Below are positions 2,298-9,488 of a stretch of 64,000 nt of DNA, piece after piece. This DNA comes from Neobacillus sp. PS2-9 (GTDB lineage: Bacteria; Bacillota; Bacilli; Bacillales; Cytobacillaceae): contig NZ_CP133269.1 of assembly GCF_030915525.1 (NCBI RefSeq), positions 4,420,501 through 4,484,500 of the forward strand, given 5' to 3'. How positions within the stretch are numbered: the stretch's first letter is position 1; every line of letters begins with the position of its first letter. A program made the translations under genes and the position numbers. A model generated the notes under the pieces. It was given only the letters and a program-made list of their open reading frames with translations, was not told where the DNA came from and made no database searches.

Positions 2298-3830
2298 CTA
2301 CTTCACATTACTCCCCGTCCGCATCTTCTGTCGCAGCTGATATTTTAATACTTTTCCAGAAGCATTTCTCGGCAGTTGCTCCTCGATAAAAATCCGTCTT
2401 GGCACCTTATAGCCTGCAAGCTTTTGACGACAGAAGCTTCGCAGTTCCTGCTCGTCAATCACAGCCCCCTCTTTCGGTACAACGATGGCGCAGACTGCCT
2501 CACCCCAGACTTCATCCGGCAACCCGATAATCGCGGCATCAAGAATACCCGGATGCTCAAAGAGAACGCTTTCAACTTCAACCGAATACACATTTTCCCC
2601 GCCGGAGATGATCATATCTTTCTTCCGGTCCACAAGCGTAATATAGCCTTCCTCGTCCATCGTTGCTAAATCCCCTGTATAAAGCCAGCCATCCTTCAGC
2701 GTGCTCTTTGTCTCCTCCGGCTTTTTATAATATTCCTTCATGACCATCGGACTGCGAACAATAAATTCCCCAATCACGCCGGGCAACACATCAATTCCTT
2801 CTTCATTCACCACCCGTGTTTCCGTTAAGAAGATAGGCTTTCCACCTTTTCCTAGATGATTCTTATGTCCCTCAGGATCGAGAAGAATGCCTCCAGGTCC
2901 GGCTTCAGTTAAACCGCACAGGTTGTAAAACTGGTCTGTTTTAAATAGCTGCATGCTTTTTTTGACCAACTCAGGTGCCATTGGTGCGGCACCATACCCG
3001 ACTCTCTTTATGGAAGATAGATCATAATCTGCTGCATTTGGTACTTGAAGAAGGAAGTTATACATAGCTGGGACAGCGAAAAGATGGGTAATTTTATGCT
3101 CTTGAATAGCTTGAAGTGTTTTTACTGGATGGAAATCTCGATGGATAATATGGGTCGCACCAAGTGCCACACCGGAAATCAAGAATAGGTTCAGCTGTGC
3201 TGAGTGGAACAGTGGTGCTAAATGCAGAATATGCTCATGTGGCCGGATTCCCATATTGATGATAACAGAAATGCCAACTTTAAAAATTTGGTCATGTGTA
3301 AATAATGCTCCCTTTGGCCGCCCCGTTGTCCCTGAGGTATAGAGGATTTCTAAGTCGTCCTGCTGAGATACTTCCACATTTGGTTCCTCTATGTTAGCGG
3401 ATAGAATTGTTTCATACGAATAGTAGCCTGTTGTTTCTGGTTCACCACCAACGGTAATCACCAACCGAACACCCGCACCTTGCTTCGCTTCTGCAATGAT
3501 TGACTCAAATTCCTGGTCACAAACAACAACCGCAGCGTCTGACTGCTGTAAAATATATTGAACCTCTGAAGCCGTCAGTCGGAAGTTAACTGGAACAGCA
3601 ACCGCACCAATTTTGGCAGCCGCAAAAAAAGTAAACACAAAGTGATCCGAATTCTTCATCATTAATGCAAGCTTGTCACCTTTTTTTACACCTTGTTCCA
3701 TTAAACCGTGTGCCAGTTGATTAACTTCCTCATTAAATTGACGATACGTATAGCTTCTACCTTCACATTCAATGGCCAGTAATTCAGGATATTTGCGTGC
3801 ATTTTGCGTTAATAGGCTGCCGATATTCAT
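2298..3830 (-). CDS. Acyl-CoA synthetase (AMP-forming, ANL superfamily)
   Basis: Activates a carboxylic (probably fatty) acid to its CoA thioester through an acyl-AMP intermediate. The 510 residues show the P-loop-like motif YTSGTTGRPKG at 164-174, the hinge region GWLYTGDLATMDEEGY, DRKKDMIISGGENVY, and the C-terminal catalytic lysine in PRNASGKVLK. The start is fixed by AAAGGAGGATCCC just upstream. A consensus sigma-54 promoter lies about 40 bp before the start, making this the first gene of the ligase/dehydrogenase/thiolase operon. The length fits medium- or long-chain ligases of the FadD/LcfA type, but the substrate is not certain; a branched or aromatic acid is possible. Confidence 0.93.
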   Translation of the reverse strand: MNIGSLLTQNARKYPELLAIECEGRSYTYRQFNEEVNQLAHGLMEQGVKKGDKLALMMKNSDHFVFTFFAAAKIGAVAVPVNFRLTASEVQYILQQSDAAVVVCDQEFESIIAEAKQGAGVRLVITVGGEPETTGYYSYETILSANIEEPNVEVSQQDDLEILYTSGTTGRPKGALFTHDQIFKVGISVIINMGIRPHEHILHLAPLFHSAQLNLFLISGVALGATHIIHRDFHPVKTLQAIQEHKITHLFAVPAMYNFLLQVPNAADYDLSSIKRVGYGAAPMAPELVKKSMQLFKTDQFYNLCGLTEAGPGGILLDPEGHKNHLGKGGKPIFLTETRVVNEEGIDVLPGVIGEFIVRSPMVMKEYYKKPEETKSTLKDGWLYTGDLATMDEEGYITLVDRKKDMIISGGENVYSVEVESVLFEHPGILDAAIIGLPDEVWGEAVCAIVVPKEGAVIDEQELRSFCRQKLAGYKVPRRIFIEEQLPRNASGKVLKYQLRQKMRTGSNVK

Positions 3831-3871: not shown

Positions 3872-3888
3872 ATGCAATTTTTGTGCCA
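3872..3888 (-). promoter_or_regulatory. Sigma-54 (-24/-12) promoter of the acyl-CoA ligase operon
   Basis: On the minus strand the sequence reads TGGCAC-AAAAA-TTGCAT, a full match to the sigma-54 consensus TGGCAC-N5-TTGCW. The start site should fall near 3862, about 30 bases before the ATG at 3830. Confidence 0.9.
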
Positions 3889-3972
3889 ATATTCAGAAAA
3901 GTAGAATCAGAGGCCAATACAGGATTCTTCGACTATTAGTTGTATTTCAACCATACACAGACGACAATCTAA

Positions 3973-3989
3973 TGTCCAAAAACTGGACA
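3973..3989. promoter_or_regulatory. Candidate upstream activator site (perfect dyad)
   Basis: TGTCCA-AAAAC-TGGACA is a perfect 6-5-6 inverted repeat, about 95 bp upstream of the -24 element (roughly -120). This is the normal position for an enhancer bound by a sigma-54 activator. The activator gene itself begins on the far side of it. A degenerate copy with the same geometry lies at 8151. Confidence 0.6.
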
Positions 3990-3997
3990 CCATCAAA

Positions 3998-4034
3998 TGA
4001 GGGAGACGAAGTAATGTATTCACGTCTCCCCTCA
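3998..4034 (-). terminator. Terminator-like hairpin after the activator gene
   Basis: GGGAGACG (4001-4008) pairs with CGTCTCCC (4023-4030), and the outer bases extend the stem with one bulge. It follows the stop codon at 4048 on the minus strand. The T-tract is poor, so termination may be incomplete. Confidence 0.5.
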
Positions 4035-4047
4035 CCACTTGTTGTTC

Positions 4048-5793
4048 CTAAGTCGGCAATTTATATTTTTTTATTTTTTCATATAAACCAGACCGGCTAA
4101 TCCCTAGTAACCTAGCAGCCTTTACTTTATTTCCTTGAACTTGGACAAGTGCCTTTTTAATCGCTTCAAGCTCAGCATTTTCAACTAAGGAAACATTCAC
4201 CAATGGTTCGAAAATGGTCACCTTCTTTGTTACATAATCAGGTAGGTCCTCATATTTAATTTTTCCACTTTCAGCAAAGGTCATGGCCCGTTCCATCACG
4301 TTTCTTAGCTCACGGACATTCCCAGGCCAATCGTAACCTAGCAATGTTTCTCTTGCCCTTTCCTCTATACCCATTATGCTTGTGCCCAAAATTTGATTAA
4401 ATTCAATCATGAATTGTCCAATTAAATGGTCGACATCATAGAGGCGTTCCCTTAGAGGAGGAACGTTTAATGAAATCACATTGAGGCGGTAGTATAAATC
4501 CTCTCTAAACGTCCCTTCTTTGACCATTTCTTCAAGGTTACGGTTAGTAGCGGCGATAATTCTAACATCCACTTGAATTCTTACCGTTCCACCCACCCGA
4601 TAAAATTCTCTCTCTTGAAGGACACGCAATAGCTTTGCCTGGAGCGCTAACGACATATCTCCAATCTCATCGAGAAAAAGAGTCCCTCCATTGGCCAAAT
4701 CGAACTTACCCAGCTTCCCTTTTTGTCTCGCTCCTGTAAAAGCCCCTTCTTCATAGCCAAAAAACTCCGATTCTAGCAAATCCTCAGGAATGGCTGCGCA
4801 ATTGACAACAATGAACTTTCCCGTACTTCTCGCACTACTTTTATGAATGGCGTGTGCAAATAGTTCTTTGCCCGTACCACTTTCTCCGCGAATCAGAATG
4901 GTCGAACGGCCTTTTGCTGCTTTTGCCGCACTTTTCTTCAATTTTTCCATATAGGGGTCAACGGTTAATAGATGGTCCCATGTGAATCTCGCTGATTCCG
5001 ACTTCTGAAATTGTTGATGATAAAAGCTTGCCTTATTCTCTGCCTTCTGCAGCTTTTTGAATAGCTCGCTTACCTCGTTTAATTGCCGGAATACCACTTT
5101 GCCTATTGCCCCAATCACCCTTCCATCCTCTACAATCGGGATGCGATGAACGATATATTTAATGCCATTAATCTCTAAAAACCCGCTTACTTCAGCGGTT
5201 TCGGATTCATAAACCTTTTCTAAGTGAAGCTGTGGCAGTGCTTTCTCAGCTGGTTCGTGTAGCACCGCTTCGATTTGAAGATTGAATAATTCTAAAAGAG
5301 GAGGACTGACCATCTGAATCTTTTTCCTTTCATCCGTCATGACAATCCCGTCAAATGCATGGTCAATGGCTGTTTCCAATGTCCTTTTTAATGTTTTAAT
5401 CGTTTGTAATTCCTGTGAGGTTTGTAAAAGTGACATGACCATATCTGTCTTTGTTAAAATACCAACCACTTGGTCTTGTTCATCGATAATCACACCTGTT
5501 CCAACCTGACTGGTTTTTACAATTCTCTCAATCTGTTCATACGGGGTATTGATATCTAATGTTTCAACCTGTTTTATTATGTATTTTTTGATGGGAGTGT
5601 TAAGGGGACATTCAGCTATGACCATTTGATATAAACTGCTACGAGTAAAAACACCGAGAAGCGCTCTGTTTGAGTCAGTTACTGGCAACAGGTTCCACTT
5701 CTTTTCTTGCATAAGATCAAGGGCTTCTTTAAGTGTCGTTACTTCTGTTACCCTACAATCCACTGGCGTAATGATATCTTTAAATTCAGGCAT
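4048..5793 (-). CDS. Sigma-54-dependent activator: CBS pair, PAS, AAA+, Fis HTH
   Basis: Enhancer-binding protein that uses ATP to open sigma-54 RNA polymerase complexes. The 581 residues read in order as two CBS motifs (about 1-60 and 65-125), a PAS-like domain (about 140-235), an AAA+ module and a Fis-type helix-turn-helix (about 550-578). Walker A is GESGTGKE (303-310), the sigma-54 contact loop GAFTGA is intact (350-355), and Walker B is LFLDEIGD (372-379). There is no response-regulator receiver domain, so the input is probably a ligand sensed by the CBS or PAS part; adenylates or acyl-CoA would suit the neighbours, but this is inference. Both flanking acyl-CoA units carry sigma-54 promoters, making them the obvious targets. 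Confidence 0.93.
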   Translation of the reverse strand: MPEFKDIITPVDCRVTEVTTLKEALDLMQEKKWNLLPVTDSNRALLGVFTRSSLYQMVIAECPLNTPIKKYIIKQVETLDINTPYEQIERIVKTSQVGTGVIIDEQDQVVGILTKTDMVMSLLQTSQELQTIKTLKRTLETAIDHAFDGIVMTDERKKIQMVSPPLLELFNLQIEAVLHEPAEKALPQLHLEKVYESETAEVSGFLEINGIKYIVHRIPIVEDGRVIGAIGKVVFRQLNEVSELFKKLQKAENKASFYHQQFQKSESARFTWDHLLTVDPYMEKLKKSAAKAAKGRSTILIRGESGTGKELFAHAIHKSSARSTGKFIVVNCAAIPEDLLESEFFGYEEGAFTGARQKGKLGKFDLANGGTLFLDEIGDMSLALQAKLLRVLQEREFYRVGGTVRIQVDVRIIAATNRNLEEMVKEGTFREDLYYRLNVISLNVPPLRERLYDVDHLIGQFMIEFNQILGTSIMGIEERARETLLGYDWPGNVRELRNVMERAMTFAESGKIKYEDLPDYVTKKVTIFEPLVNVSLVENAELEAIKKALVQVQGNKVKAARLLGISRSGLYEKIKKYKLPT

Positions 5794-6072
5794 TTCGTCA
5801 CCACCCTCTTTACATAGCTTTATTGTACCAAAAAAGAGTGATTTTTTTGACTATTTTTACAATAGACATTCTTTCATTGAATCTTTAAACAGGTAACCAA
5901 AGATGAAGAAATCCATTATAATTCTTTTTCATTAGCGGTAAAGCAAGGAATACCTCAACTATTGTCGAATTTTTAGATAATAGGTTATATCCTAAATACT
6001 AGAAATCTTTATAATATAAACAAATGAGGAGCCTTCCATAGATTCACGTAAGGCTCAAATGGGGGACCAATT

Positions 6073-7173
6073 ATGAAAAAGTTGGATTACAAGCGGTTTG
6101 AAGAATTACTGTTTCGGGATTGCTGTAGAATGATTGAAGAATTTTCAAGTACTGAACACAACAGAGACGTCTATTCCTTCTGTATTTACACACAATTAGA
6201 CCACGGCAATATTGTCCTATTTATCAACACTTTGGATTCTTTTAATAAAAAAAGAAGTAGTGGCGCCTATTACACTATTGAAGATCCATTCTACGGGCTT
6301 AGAAATCTAAAATACAGCATGAATGACTTTGGATTTCCTTTTAAGTTCTCCAAAGATATAGAAGAATTCGCATCCCGCCATGCAACTCAAGAATTGGATG
6401 AGTTGGAAGGATGGGACCCCCTAATCAAAGGCGCTATCAATGTATGCATTCAATTGGATGAACAATTCAACTTATTGAACCTGACAGAGGATTTTATTGC
6501 TTTTAACATCATTCACGATATGGATTATGATGAACAGATCAACCTTATGAAAGAAACAGTCCCGTTGGAAAAATTGTATGCTTCCTTTCCGGAAATTGCG
6601 AGGTTCGAACAGCTGCAATTCAACCTTCACCAAATGAGCAAGGAGGAACAAATGAATTATTGGATATCTGCATATGAGGACTTTTCAACCGATACAGAGG
6701 GTGAGAAAGTCAACTATTTAAAGGCGTGCCGACGGAATAAGTATGATGTTATAAATATTATTAAAAGTTTTGGGAAAGACATTTCACCCAAATTATTATC
6801 ATTACTTCAGACGTACGGGAAAAGTGAGGAATTAAACCATGAGTTCGCCTCTTTACCAAAAGAGGAAAGGGTAAAAAGGGTAAAAGAAGATAAAAGTGGA
6901 ACTCTTAGTGTATGGACGAAGGAAGGAAAAATCACACACGAACTAATTGACCTAGTTAAATCAACGGGAGACGAAGAAATGATAAAGCCCTTGCACGAGA
7001 TACTACAATTTTGGTTTACCAAAACAATTGCCTATCCATATGACGGTATCGGTAGGAATGTTTCTCTTCTTGCAAGAGCGTTGAATTCCCTATCTCCTGG
7101 TCAATTTCCTTATCCTTCTATAGACAGTGGAGATCGATTGGAGAACTATCATCATTTTAACTTAAACCTATAA
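6073..7173 (+). CDS. DUF4303-like protein of unknown function
   Basis: A 366-residue soluble protein with an acidic, charged composition and no signal peptide or membrane segment. The N-terminal part (RFEELLFRDCCRMIEEF, then VYSFCIYTQLDHG) resembles DUF4303/immunity-type domains, but I place it there only tentatively. The C-terminal half is helical and contains KACRRNKYDVINIIKSFG. The start is supported by GGGGGA eight bases before the ATG. It stands alone between the activator gene (divergent) and the dehydrogenase gene (convergent). A Spo0A-box-like TTGTCGAA lies at 5962-5969. I cannot give a function. Confidence 0.7.
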   Translation: MKKLDYKRFEELLFRDCCRMIEEFSSTEHNRDVYSFCIYTQLDHGNIVLFINTLDSFNKKRSSGAYYTIEDPFYGLRNLKYSMNDFGFPFKFSKDIEEFASRHATQELDELEGWDPLIKGAINVCIQLDEQFNLLNLTEDFIAFNIIHDMDYDEQINLMKETVPLEKLYASFPEIARFEQLQFNLHQMSKEEQMNYWISAYEDFSTDTEGEKVNYLKACRRNKYDVINIIKSFGKDISPKLLSLLQTYGKSEELNHEFASLPKEERVKRVKEDKSGTLSVWTKEGKITHELIDLVKSTGDEEMIKPLHEILQFWFTKTIAYPYDGIGRNVSLLARALNSLSPGQFPYPSIDSGDRLENYHHFNLNL

Positions 7174-7204
7174 TTCTTGTCTTAATCTTGCCAATCTCTG
7201 AATA

Positions 7205-7245
7205 AAAAATGACTATCAAGCAGTTTAAATTTGATAGTCATTTTT
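7205..7245. terminator. Bidirectional terminator
   Basis: AAAAATGACTATCAA (7205-7219) pairs perfectly with TTGATAGTCATTTTT (7231-7245) around an 11-base loop. It separates two convergent genes and has A/T runs on both sides. Confidence 0.9.
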
Positions 7246-7276
7246 CTTTATATTTTTAATGAGAAACATCACTTTA

Positions 7277-8044
7277 TTATTTCGGCTGCATCCTAATCGC
7301 TCCATCTAGTCTGATGGTTTCACCGTTTAGCATTGGGTTTTCAATGATACTTTGGACGAGCTGGGCATACTCGGTTGGATAGCCAAGCCTTGGTGGGAAC
7401 GGCACCATTTTTCCAAGTGAATCTCTCGCTTCTTGAGGAAGAGTATCAAACATTGGTGTGTGGAAAAGCCCCGGTGCAATCGTCATCACACGAATTCCGT
7501 ATCGTGCTAGCTCTCTTGCAATTGGTAAGGTCATACCGACAATCCCACCTTTTGATGCACTATAGGCAGCCTGCCCGATTTGACCGTCAAAGGCAGCCAC
7601 AGAGGCAGTATTGATAATCACGCCTCTTTCGTTAGACTCATTCACTTCGTTGCTCGACATTTTCTCAGTAGCAATCCTAATCACATTGAAGGTCCCAATC
7701 AAATTGACATTGATGACCTTTGAAAAAAGAGCTAGGTTATGAGCTCCATTTCTGCCGATGACTTTCTCAGCAATCCCAATTCCCGCACAGTTTACAACCG
7801 TATTTACTTCTCCTAAAAAGTCAGCCGCTTTATTAACCGCTTCCTGGATGTCCTCTTCCTTCGTGACATCTGCCTTCAAAAATAAAACTGCTTCCCCTAA
7901 CTCATTTTTGAGCCGCTTCCCATTTTCTTCAGACTGGTCAAAAATAACCGCTTTTCCGCCTTTGCCTACAATGTTCCGCACAGTCGCTTCTCCAAGTCCT
8001 GAAGCCCCGCCTGTAACTATGGCACGACAAGCTTGCATATCCAT
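7277..8044 (-). CDS. Short-chain dehydrogenase, 3-hydroxyacyl-CoA dehydrogenase type
   Basis: NAD-dependent SDR of 255 residues, closest in pattern to type II 3-hydroxyacyl-CoA dehydrogenases (HSD10-like), which oxidise 3-hydroxyacyl-CoA in beta-oxidation or isoleucine breakdown. The cofactor motif is TGGASGLG (11-18), NCAG is at 85-88, and the catalytic residues are Ser148 (NTASVAAF) and Tyr161/Lys165 (YSASK). AAGGGGG nine bases upstream supports the ATG at 8044. A consensus sigma-54 promoter precedes it, matching the ligase operon across the activator gene. It therefore probably supplies the third beta-oxidation step of the same pathway, although substrate identity is inferred from context. 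Confidence 0.88.
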
Positions 8045-8081
8045 CCTAATAACCCCCTTAAAAGAATTCTATTTTGTTAAA

Positions 8082-8098
8082 TTGCAAGAATTGTGCCA
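8082..8098 (-). promoter_or_regulatory. Sigma-54 promoter of the SDR gene
   Basis: The minus strand reads TGGCAC-AATTC-TTGCAA, again a full TGGCAC-N5-TTGCW match, about 40 bp before the start codon. This is the same spacing to the gene as at 3872. Confidence 0.9.
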
Positions 8099-8150
8099 GT
8101 TGGATATCTTAAGGTTGGTAAAGCAGTTGTCTTATATTCATTTTTTTATA

Positions 8151-8167
8151 TGTATATCGTTTGGACA
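8151..8167. promoter_or_regulatory. Second candidate activator site (imperfect dyad)
   Basis: TGTATA-TCGTT-TGGACA keeps the 6-5-6 geometry of the perfect dyad at 3973, with one arm intact and two changes in the other. It lies about 63 bp upstream of the -24 element. The two sites differ in distance by about 32 bp, which is three helical turns. Confidence 0.4.
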
Positions 8168-8205
8168 GTTTTCACAAGAATATGACCGAAAATCGTACAG
8201 TTATA

Positions 8206-8245
8206 AAAAAGGTCAGGCCCCATTAATAGGAGGCTCTGACCTTTT
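8206..8245 (-). terminator. Terminator of the broken MFS gene
   Basis: AAAAAGGTCAG pairs with CTGACCTTTTT, followed on the minus strand by a T-run. The hairpin straddles the stop codon at 8223. Confidence 0.85.
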
Positions 8246-9488
8246 TCTTAGAAACGATATTTTCCTGTGACGCAACCCGTTTCTTTTTTTCCATAATAAG
8301 AACTAAGGCAATAGCAACTAGTAGAAAAAGACTCGCAATCCGGAAGATCGACGCCGTATCTACAAACTGTGCAAGGGCCCCAAAAATAACGCCGCTCAGC
8401 CCGATCCCTAAATCAATGGATGAAAAAATCATTCCATTAGCTACACCACGACGATTTGTTGGTGTCATTAATAATGCCCAAGACTGAAGCGTAGGGATTA
8501 AACAGCCAAAGCCCAAGCCAAAAAGTACGCCTGCAACAGCAATCAAGAGGCTTGAATGAGCATAGGAGAGTACCCACATGCCTACAAAAGTAAGGATGGT
8601 ACAGAAAAGAACCAGTCCGATAGGTCCCTTTTCATCAAACCATTTTCCCGCAATCGGCCTTGCAACTGTAGCCATCAACGCATTAAAAATATAAAATAAA
8701 AAGATTTGATCGATGCCTCTTTCTTGACCAAAGATGACAATAAACGTCACGATTTATCCGTAGCCAAGATTGATAATAATAGTAATAAACGCAGGAAACC
8801 AGCTTGACTTTTCAACTAATGACCCTACATAGGAAAACTTTAAGTCTTCCTTTTTCGTATGTAGGACAGCTTCAGGAGTTTGATACCGAACAATCATAAG
8901 CAAGACAATTGCAATAAGCCCTAATAGCGCAGAAATATATATGAGATTAGTAAATGTAGTAATTTTATATAAAAAGATTCCTAGACTTGGCGCAATAATC
9001 ATCCCAATCGTAATCGACAGGCCGTAATAGCCCATCCCCTCACCTAGCCGTGAATTAGGAATGACATCGACTGCTGCCGTCCCGTTCACCGTAGTTGACC
9101 AGCCCCAAGCTAATCCGTGGACCAAGCGGAATAATAGAAAAATCAGAACTACTTGTGAAATAGGGTAAAGAATGGTAATGAGTAAGAGCATAATTGCGCC
9201 AGATATTACCAGTGCTTTTCTCGGTTAATATTCAAGCATAAAACCGATAAAGGGCCGGCTAATGACTGCACCAATTGAAAACAATGCCGTTACTAACCCA
9301 ATCTCTAATCCAGATGCTCCAATTGACTTTATATATGGCGGTAGAGTCGGAATAAGCATTTGGAATGACATAAACACAAACAAGTTCCCTACCATGAGCA
9401 TAATAAATGACTTCGTCCACAAACGCTCCTTCATCCTACCACTTCCTTCCATCAAAAAAGAACCTTCTCCGAGAAGATTCACATTCAT
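8223..9488 (-). pseudogene. MFS drug/sugar transporter interrupted by two in-frame TAA codons
   Basis: Three pieces (9488-9225, 9191-8754, 8750-8223) lie in the same reading frame and together give about 420 codons, the normal size of a 12-helix MFS permease. The first piece has helices 1-2 (MLIPTLPPYIKSIGASG, then ISRPFIGFMLEY). TAA at 9227-9225 stops it, and the frame continues PRKALVISGAI. A second TAA at 8756-8754 follows INLGYG, and the frame continues IVTFIVIFGQERG. There is no frameshift, and the hydrophobic segments continue across both stops. Nonsense decay is the simplest explanation; two sequencing errors both giving TAA are less likely. The likely original start is the ATG of MEGSGRMKERLW rather than 9488. 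Confidence 0.85.

Follow-up and report, generated by a model that had tools for sequence, protein, structure and literature searches.

Introduction

The sigma-54 regulons described in Bacillus, i.e., those of the GabR, BkdR, AcoR and RocR type, combine this sigma factor and its promoter type with an activator encoded beside the target operon. The same arrangement is found in the locus considered here, a gene cluster on the minus strand of a 64,000-nt stretch of the genome of the soil Bacillus relative Neobacillus sp. PS2-9 (5.19 Mb; contig NZ_CP133269.1, positions 4,420,501 to 4,484,500), hereafter called the window. It differs from the Bacillus regulons by its dyad, that of a GabR-like regulon being, e.g., TATGCA-N4-TGCATA, and by its pathway, since no fatty-acid regulon stands among those in the available part of the descriptions. 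In this cluster, a protein with CBS and PAS domains is likely to act as a one-component sigma-54 activator of two catabolic operons forming one regulon, and the distance from its predicted binding site, the dyad TGTCC-N7-GGACA, to the promoter is quantised in helical turns.

The best NCBIfam match of the activator is PrdR, the proline reductase regulator of Clostridioides difficile (NF041552; residues 5-578 on model positions 9-577, 496.5 bits). According to the available part of its description, PrdR is likewise a sigma-54 activator with a TGT/ACA inverted-repeat site, but the score lies below the equivalog cut-off of 795, which places the protein outside the PrdR equivalog, and its predicted targets are beta-oxidation-type genes, those of PrdR being the prd genes; another activator of the same genome scores 436 bits on this model, but just over 242-693. 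An in silico survey found sigma-54 promoters in Bacilli enriched at acyl-CoA dehydrogenases, acyl-CoA synthetases, thiolases and short-chain dehydrogenases/reductases (SDR), the available part of which names no activator, binding site or locus for these genes (PMC12316311). Face-of-helix dependence of sigma-54 activation is known from experiment, as covered in the part of a review at hand (PMC7408454). In a literature search of titles and abstract openings, neither this regulon nor quantised sigma-54 enhancer distances were found described.

Organisation of the locus

The genome contains a sigma-54 gene, two exact -24/-12 promoters flank the activator gene, and nine strong sigma-54 activator domains (>200 bits) are encoded genome-wide. 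In minus-strand order, the cluster comprises the following elements:

8183 to 8199, no strand: dyad 2 at the SDR promoter, imperfect (2 mismatches), at a distance of 84 bp to the -24 element and of 32 bp, about 3 turns, to dyad 1
8151 to 8167, no strand: dyad 1 at the SDR promoter, likewise imperfect (2 mismatches), at a distance of 52 bp to the -24 element
8084 to 8098, minus: exact -24/-12 sigma-54 promoter TGGCAC-N5-TTGC of the SDR gene
7277 to 8044, minus: SDR of the 3-hydroxyacyl-CoA dehydrogenase type II (HSD10) kind, operon 2 (Pfam and similarity)
4048 to 5793, minus: sigma-54 enhancer-binding protein, 581 aa, with CBS pair (about 1-120), PAS (about 127-235), AAA+ domain with GAFTGA and Fis-type helix-turn-helix
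3973 to 3989, no strand: perfect dyad TGTCC-N7-GGACA, predicted activator binding site, 84 bp to the -24 element
3874 to 3888, minus: exact -24/-12 sigma-54 promoter TGGCAC-N5-TTGC of the fadD-dehydrogenase-thiolase operon
2298 to 3830, minus: AMP-forming acyl-CoA ligase, fadD-like, first gene of operon 1 (open reading frame and profile matches)
920 to 2065, minus: acyl-CoA dehydrogenase (2pg0, E 3e-192; mitochondrial long-chain enzyme, E 3.6e-103)
1 to 903, minus: N-terminal part of a thiolase of 385 aa in total, which runs beyond the window

Both promoters had been proposed by a first-pass annotation made from the sequence, whose ends at 3872 and 8082 take in two extra bases; the sites end 44 bp (fadD) and 39 bp (SDR) before the start codons, close to the 40 bp it gave. 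As for its pair of dyads, the perfect one at 3973 and the imperfect one at 8151 both exist, but the latter is not significant alone and a second SDR dyad at 8183-8199 had been overlooked.

Significance within the window was rejected as evidence, the promoter pattern with one mismatch (3 matches against 2.98 expected) and the dyad with up to three (31 against 24.8) both being at chance level, and conservation was used instead. In the whole genome, TGGCAC-N5-TTGC occurs at 19 sites against 5 for the reversed pattern and TGGCAT-N5-TTGC at 15 against 9, and a single hexamer pair is thus just modestly above chance. The extended dyad TGTCCA-N5-TGGACA at 3973-3989 is the sole exact copy in the genome; copies with one mismatch are found at 16 other places against 15 in the control, i.e., without enrichment, and the dyad was accordingly rejected as a genome-wide regulon motif. 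When the 34 TGGCAY-N5-TTGC sites were scanned for TGTCC-N7-GGACA with up to two mismatches within 220 bp upstream, three of them had such a dyad, namely fadD with a perfect dyad, SDR with two dyads of 2 mismatches each and a site (L137) whose 2-mismatch dyad is probably due to chance, as the site lies inside an 859-codon open frame. This 34-site scan found no third operon with dyad and promoter in this genome.

Conservation and specificity of the dyad and promoter

Conservation was followed in 81 loci, consisting of the 80 best of 219 confirmed activator relatives and the window. Activator, ligase, dehydrogenase and thiolase genes occur in this order in 56 of the 81, and in 47 of the 81 the SDR gene lies upstream on the same strand. 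From the 59 loci retained, window included, in which the activator is followed by fadD at more than 65% identity matched from the fadD start, 58 carry an exact TGGCAY-N5-TTGC promoter, before which the dyad is perfect in 43, has one mismatch in 14 and two in 1; a dyad with at most one mismatch arises in 0.15% of shuffled sequence. The small regulon suggested by the first-pass annotation is thereby supported by phylogenetic footprinting, with the promoter in 58/59 loci, the dyad at no more than one mismatch in 57/58 and, as described below, 32/32 matches at the cluster. Dyad conservation in orthologous loci, on which that annotation had staked its reading, was indeed found. At the SDR gene, 41 of 44 promoters with exact -24/-12 elements have at least one dyad of up to two mismatches and 26 have one of no more than one mismatch, while tandem dyads 29-34 bp apart are present in 15 of the 44, window included; it is this conservation which makes the imperfect dyad at 8151-8167 credible.

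The search of other genomes for the dyad upstream of the promoter, also proposed at first pass, returned 32 matches in 31 of 151 family genomes (23 in one distance range, 9 in another) and none with a reversed control. All 32 lie at this cluster, i.e., 28 before the fadD start, 2 before the SDR gene, one before a contig end with a short piece of fadD only (L156) and one before the dehydrogenase gene (L150), and an activator gene is found within 1.5 kb of 30 of them (ahead of the promoter in 28, past the SDR gene in 2). Together with the conservation, this confinement points to a two-operon sigma-54 regulon for beta-oxidation-type enzymes, and the original observation is confirmed as real and stronger than first stated.

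The dyad might belong to a different factor, e.g., a repressor of fatty-acid genes, with the neighbouring activator using other sites. Palindromes are bound by many families, binding of the dyad by the activator is a prediction from sequence, and the SDR dyads of the window are imperfect; against this stand the restriction of the composite site to this cluster with the activator beside 30 of the 32 matches, the fixed helical phase of the dyad to the -24 element, and the form TGT-N11-ACA, which is the usual one for sites of such activators in the part of the source available (PMC6615313). Furthermore, 7 of 8 compared aligned activator relatives outside the main group have other targets or lack such a dyad, and position 569 of the recognition helix, Gly or Ser in the main group, is Val in all eight. 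Altogether, assignment of the dyad to another factor seems quite improbable, and binding by the neighbouring activator is the reading retained.

In loci L107-L119, related CBS-PAS activators lie beside thiolase, SDR and acyl-CoA dehydrogenase genes without the TGTCC dyad, except in L108, and probably form a sister regulon with a different site. In the 15 loci scanned for these group-2 activators, no shared palindrome was found upstream of the sigma-54 sites, L108 excepted, which has the main-group dyad.

Helical phase of the dyad-to-promoter distance

Two loci were dropped before the phase test, one with TGGTAC (L056) and one whose dyad has two mismatches (L103), leaving 57 fadD promoters. Their dyad to -24 distances fall into 51-53, 60-64, 70-75, 82-85 and 94-96 bp, with a resultant of 0.82 at a period of 10.5 bp; in the same loci, the resultant is 0.04 from dyad to fadD start, 0.25 from the -12 element to the start and 0.02 from activator stop to dyad (n=36). 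The 32 matches of the whole-genome search, partly the same promoters, give 0.80. That the dyad shifts almost solely by whole turns suggests a need for protein and promoter to face one another.

Shared descent offers another account, in which the stepwise distances reflect a few ancestral insertions without selection for helical phase, and relatives do share distances, many pairs differing by 0-2 bp. Yet on a tree (a quick one without bootstrap, L126 omitted) the turn class must have changed at least 12 times, and the 19 distinct distances, each counted once, still give a resultant of 0.66, equalled in none of 50,000 random draws. Among 28 path-disjoint pairs, the difference is 0-2 bp in 20, 8-12 bp in 6 and 20 bp in 2, never 3-7 or 13-19, the eight larger steps having p 0.001 against uniform steps. 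The control distances on the same DNA lack phase, and the SDR promoters as well as those of a second activator sit on a similar ladder. As such, shared insertions are an improbable explanation, and selection for helical phase is preferred.

At the SDR promoters, 58 of 59 dyads lie within 2.5 bp of the ladder 31+10.5k, about half being expected by chance; a larger deviation is seen in 1/59 at SDR (L098, 100 bp) and 1/57 at fadD (L081, 70 bp). A GabR-like regulon of the same genome, so named from its targets, has the dyad TATGCA-N4-TGCATA at G000:C1:1196785, 1198443 and 1202777, its targets by sequence being a permease, a glutamate-dehydrogenase-like and an aldehyde-dehydrogenase-like protein. 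Its 26 promoters in the family show distances of 40-42, 50-52, 60-62, 69-72 and 81 bp with one outlier at 87 bp, i.e., a resultant of 0.80 (distinct values p 0.002; controls 0.18 and, for dyad to start, 0.31), uncorrected for relatedness. Mean phases are -2.6 bp for fadD, -2.9 bp for SDR and -4.4 bp for the GabR-like regulon. A third activator pattern gave 3 matches in the 151 genomes (53, 54 and 56 bp by place length, without check of L207) and was uninformative. A general rule may be formulated, whereby natural sigma-54 enhancers with a single dyad drift in whole turns at a similar angle across activators and across both promoters of one regulon, the short loops of IHF-poor Bacillaceae being torsionally stiff and this stiffness being recorded by DNA across genomes; the case for and against such a rule appears evenly balanced.

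The activator and its putative sensor domains

The CBS-PAS-AAA+-Fis reading of the first pass holds. Pfam recovers the CBS domains, Sigma54_activat (PF00158, E 7.5e-73, 244 bits), in which GESGTGKE (Walker A) and GAFTGA are read, and the Fis-type DNA-binding domain HTH_8 (PF02954, E 3.8e-13), whereas PAS is below the cut-off by Pfam (E 0.005) but clear by fold search. A CBS pair in place of a receiver domain was also rightly noted, though this architecture is already known from PrdR.

The CBS-pair fold was confirmed by an AlphaFold model and fold search, and matches AcuB bound to AMP, ADP, ATP or Ap4A. As far as the available parts of its descriptions go (PMC13121692, PMC13039410), AcuB carries a C-terminal ACT domain and acts as a deacetylase inhibitor, unlike the activator, and of its two ribose Asp just one is matched in the CBS pair here. 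The second domain, CBS2, retains GxLTKTD, with G111, T114 (32/32), K115 (31/32) and D117 (27 D and 5 E of 32). Fold match and motif make an adenylate sensor plausible and neither speaks for acyl-CoA, the other ligand first suggested. The CBS pair may instead be structural, PAS-B alone sensing the signal: CBS1 lacks the ribose Asp, such that nucleotide binding may be reduced or absent, and Arg33/His34 of AcuB appear to match Trp33/Asn34 (by position, unaligned). Since the CBS2 motif residues are conserved and the pair is retained in 42/42 rows while PAS-A was lost at least 5 times, this looks rather unlikely, and a sensory CBS pair is favoured.

Enzymes and probable substrate

The enzyme types fit the beta-oxidation regulon proposed at first pass. 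That the regulon serves a different carboxylic acid, be it branched, aromatic or other, in place of long-chain fatty acids is a possibility of some weight, albeit a doubtful one. The ligase is equally near feruloyl-CoA synthetase (8wev) and fatty-acyl-CoA synthase (8weu), HSD10-type enzymes take branched substrates, and past the thiolase, outside the window (L179), the operon holds genes for another acyl-CoA ligase and for a CoA transferase of CaiB/BaiF type (as judged from sequence), with relatives in 44/57 and 48/57 loci, respectively. Long-chain fatty acids are favoured by the ligase score of 545 bits, above the cut-off of 476, for the NCBIfam subfamily PRK06187 (long-chain-fatty-acid--CoA ligase), and by the dehydrogenase, which is near a Bacillaceae-type enzyme and, next, the mitochondrial long-chain dehydrogenase. 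No enoyl-CoA hydratase was seen among the cluster open frames inspected.

Proposed mechanism

In the scheme proposed, a dimer of the activator would bind TGTCC-N7-GGACA, present as one strong dyad before fadD and two weak tandem dyads before the SDR gene, the AAA+ ring would assemble there, and a DNA loop of 50-110 bp would bring it to the SigL polymerase for opening at TGGCAC-N5-TTGC. Such a loop, short and stiff, could not twist freely, which would confine the dyad to one helix face and let only whole-turn shifts survive. Promoter 1 would thus provide the ligase, acyl-CoA dehydrogenase and thiolase (activation, dehydrogenation and thiolysis) and promoter 2 the 3-hydroxyacyl-CoA dehydrogenase of one and the same pathway. 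Input would come via the retained PAS-B, probably from a pathway metabolite, and via the CBS pair, probably from the adenine nucleotide state, AMP being also a product of the ligase reaction.

Several points weigh against this scheme: (i) binding by the activator and expression of the two operons are predicted from sequence; (ii) the SDR dyads of the window carry two mismatches each; (iii) another activator could read the promoters of both operons; (iv) relatedness inflates the raw phase statistic and the corrected test has just 8 informative pairs; (v) the CBS1 ribose Asp is replaced by S53, this position being S in 15, G in 8 and R in 5 of 32; and (vi) with feruloyl-CoA synthetase as near to the ligase as the fatty-acyl enzyme, nothing is fatty-acid-specific. 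All considered, the scheme, dyad binding, looping and sensing included, remains probable. The sites with their conservation, specificity and phasing, as well as the domain composition of the activator, are read directly from the sequences, while binding, activation, looping, ligands and CodY control are predicted from them.

Other control elements and neighbouring sequences

Two further candidate elements lie on the minus strand:

3888 to 3902, minus: CodY-like box ACTTTTCTGAATATT, 2 mismatches to AATTTTCWGAAAATT, abutting the -24 element and overlapping its first base
5823 to 5831, minus: extended -10-like element TGGTACAAT before the activator gene, possible but weak housekeeping promoter

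The genome encodes CodY, and a box with at most 3 mismatches at a constant offset directly before TGGCA occurs in 27/58 fadD promoters (shuffles 1.5%) and 0/44 SDR promoters, in line with CodY regulon membership; it would add nutrient repression of operon 1. The box before the activator gene of the window has 4 mismatches and is not above chance, while 24 of 51 loci have one with 3 or fewer. The extended -10-like type is present in 14 of 51 scanned loci and, by this pattern, absent in 37. Behind the activator gene, a terminator hairpin is unconvincing (fold z -1.56), and promoter- and terminator-like sites in the scan came in chance numbers. Before the dehydrogenase gene lies a cre-like (CcpA) site (2088-2101, minus, 2 mismatches); such sites with up to one mismatch stand 29-37 bp before this gene in 17/54 relatives, at a near-constant place (shuffles 0.6%).

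In some relatives the SDR gene is directly upstream of the activator gene (148 bp in L051, 133 bp in L052), an arrangement in which autoregulation might arise in addition through read-through. The window has a DUF4303-domain gene between the two, encoded on the other strand (6073-7173, plus) and present in 1/57 main loci, i.e., the window itself. With a size that varies in relatives between some 130 bp and several kb, this gap has the appearance of a hot spot for insertions. Between fadD and the dehydrogenase gene (2123-2279), a tandem array of units of about 21 bp (GTGTAGATAA... on the coding strand) is found; in relatives, this gap holds other diverged repeat-like sequence in some and just 42-75 bp in others. 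Finally, a major facilitator superfamily (MFS) transporter gene (8223-9488, minus) is broken by in-frame stops into three open frames (175, 145 and 87 aa), and an undivided match to it adjoins the SDR gene in several Neobacillus loci.

Significance

The regulon would supply the activator, the predicted binding site and two target operons behind the enrichment that the available part of the survey reports without a regulator (PMC12316311). The PAS-A losses at a constant DNA target form a natural series useful to find the domain that reads the inducer. The cluster may also serve as a simple reporter system for face-of-helix dependence, a rarely tested property which evolution appears to have tried here at least 12 times.

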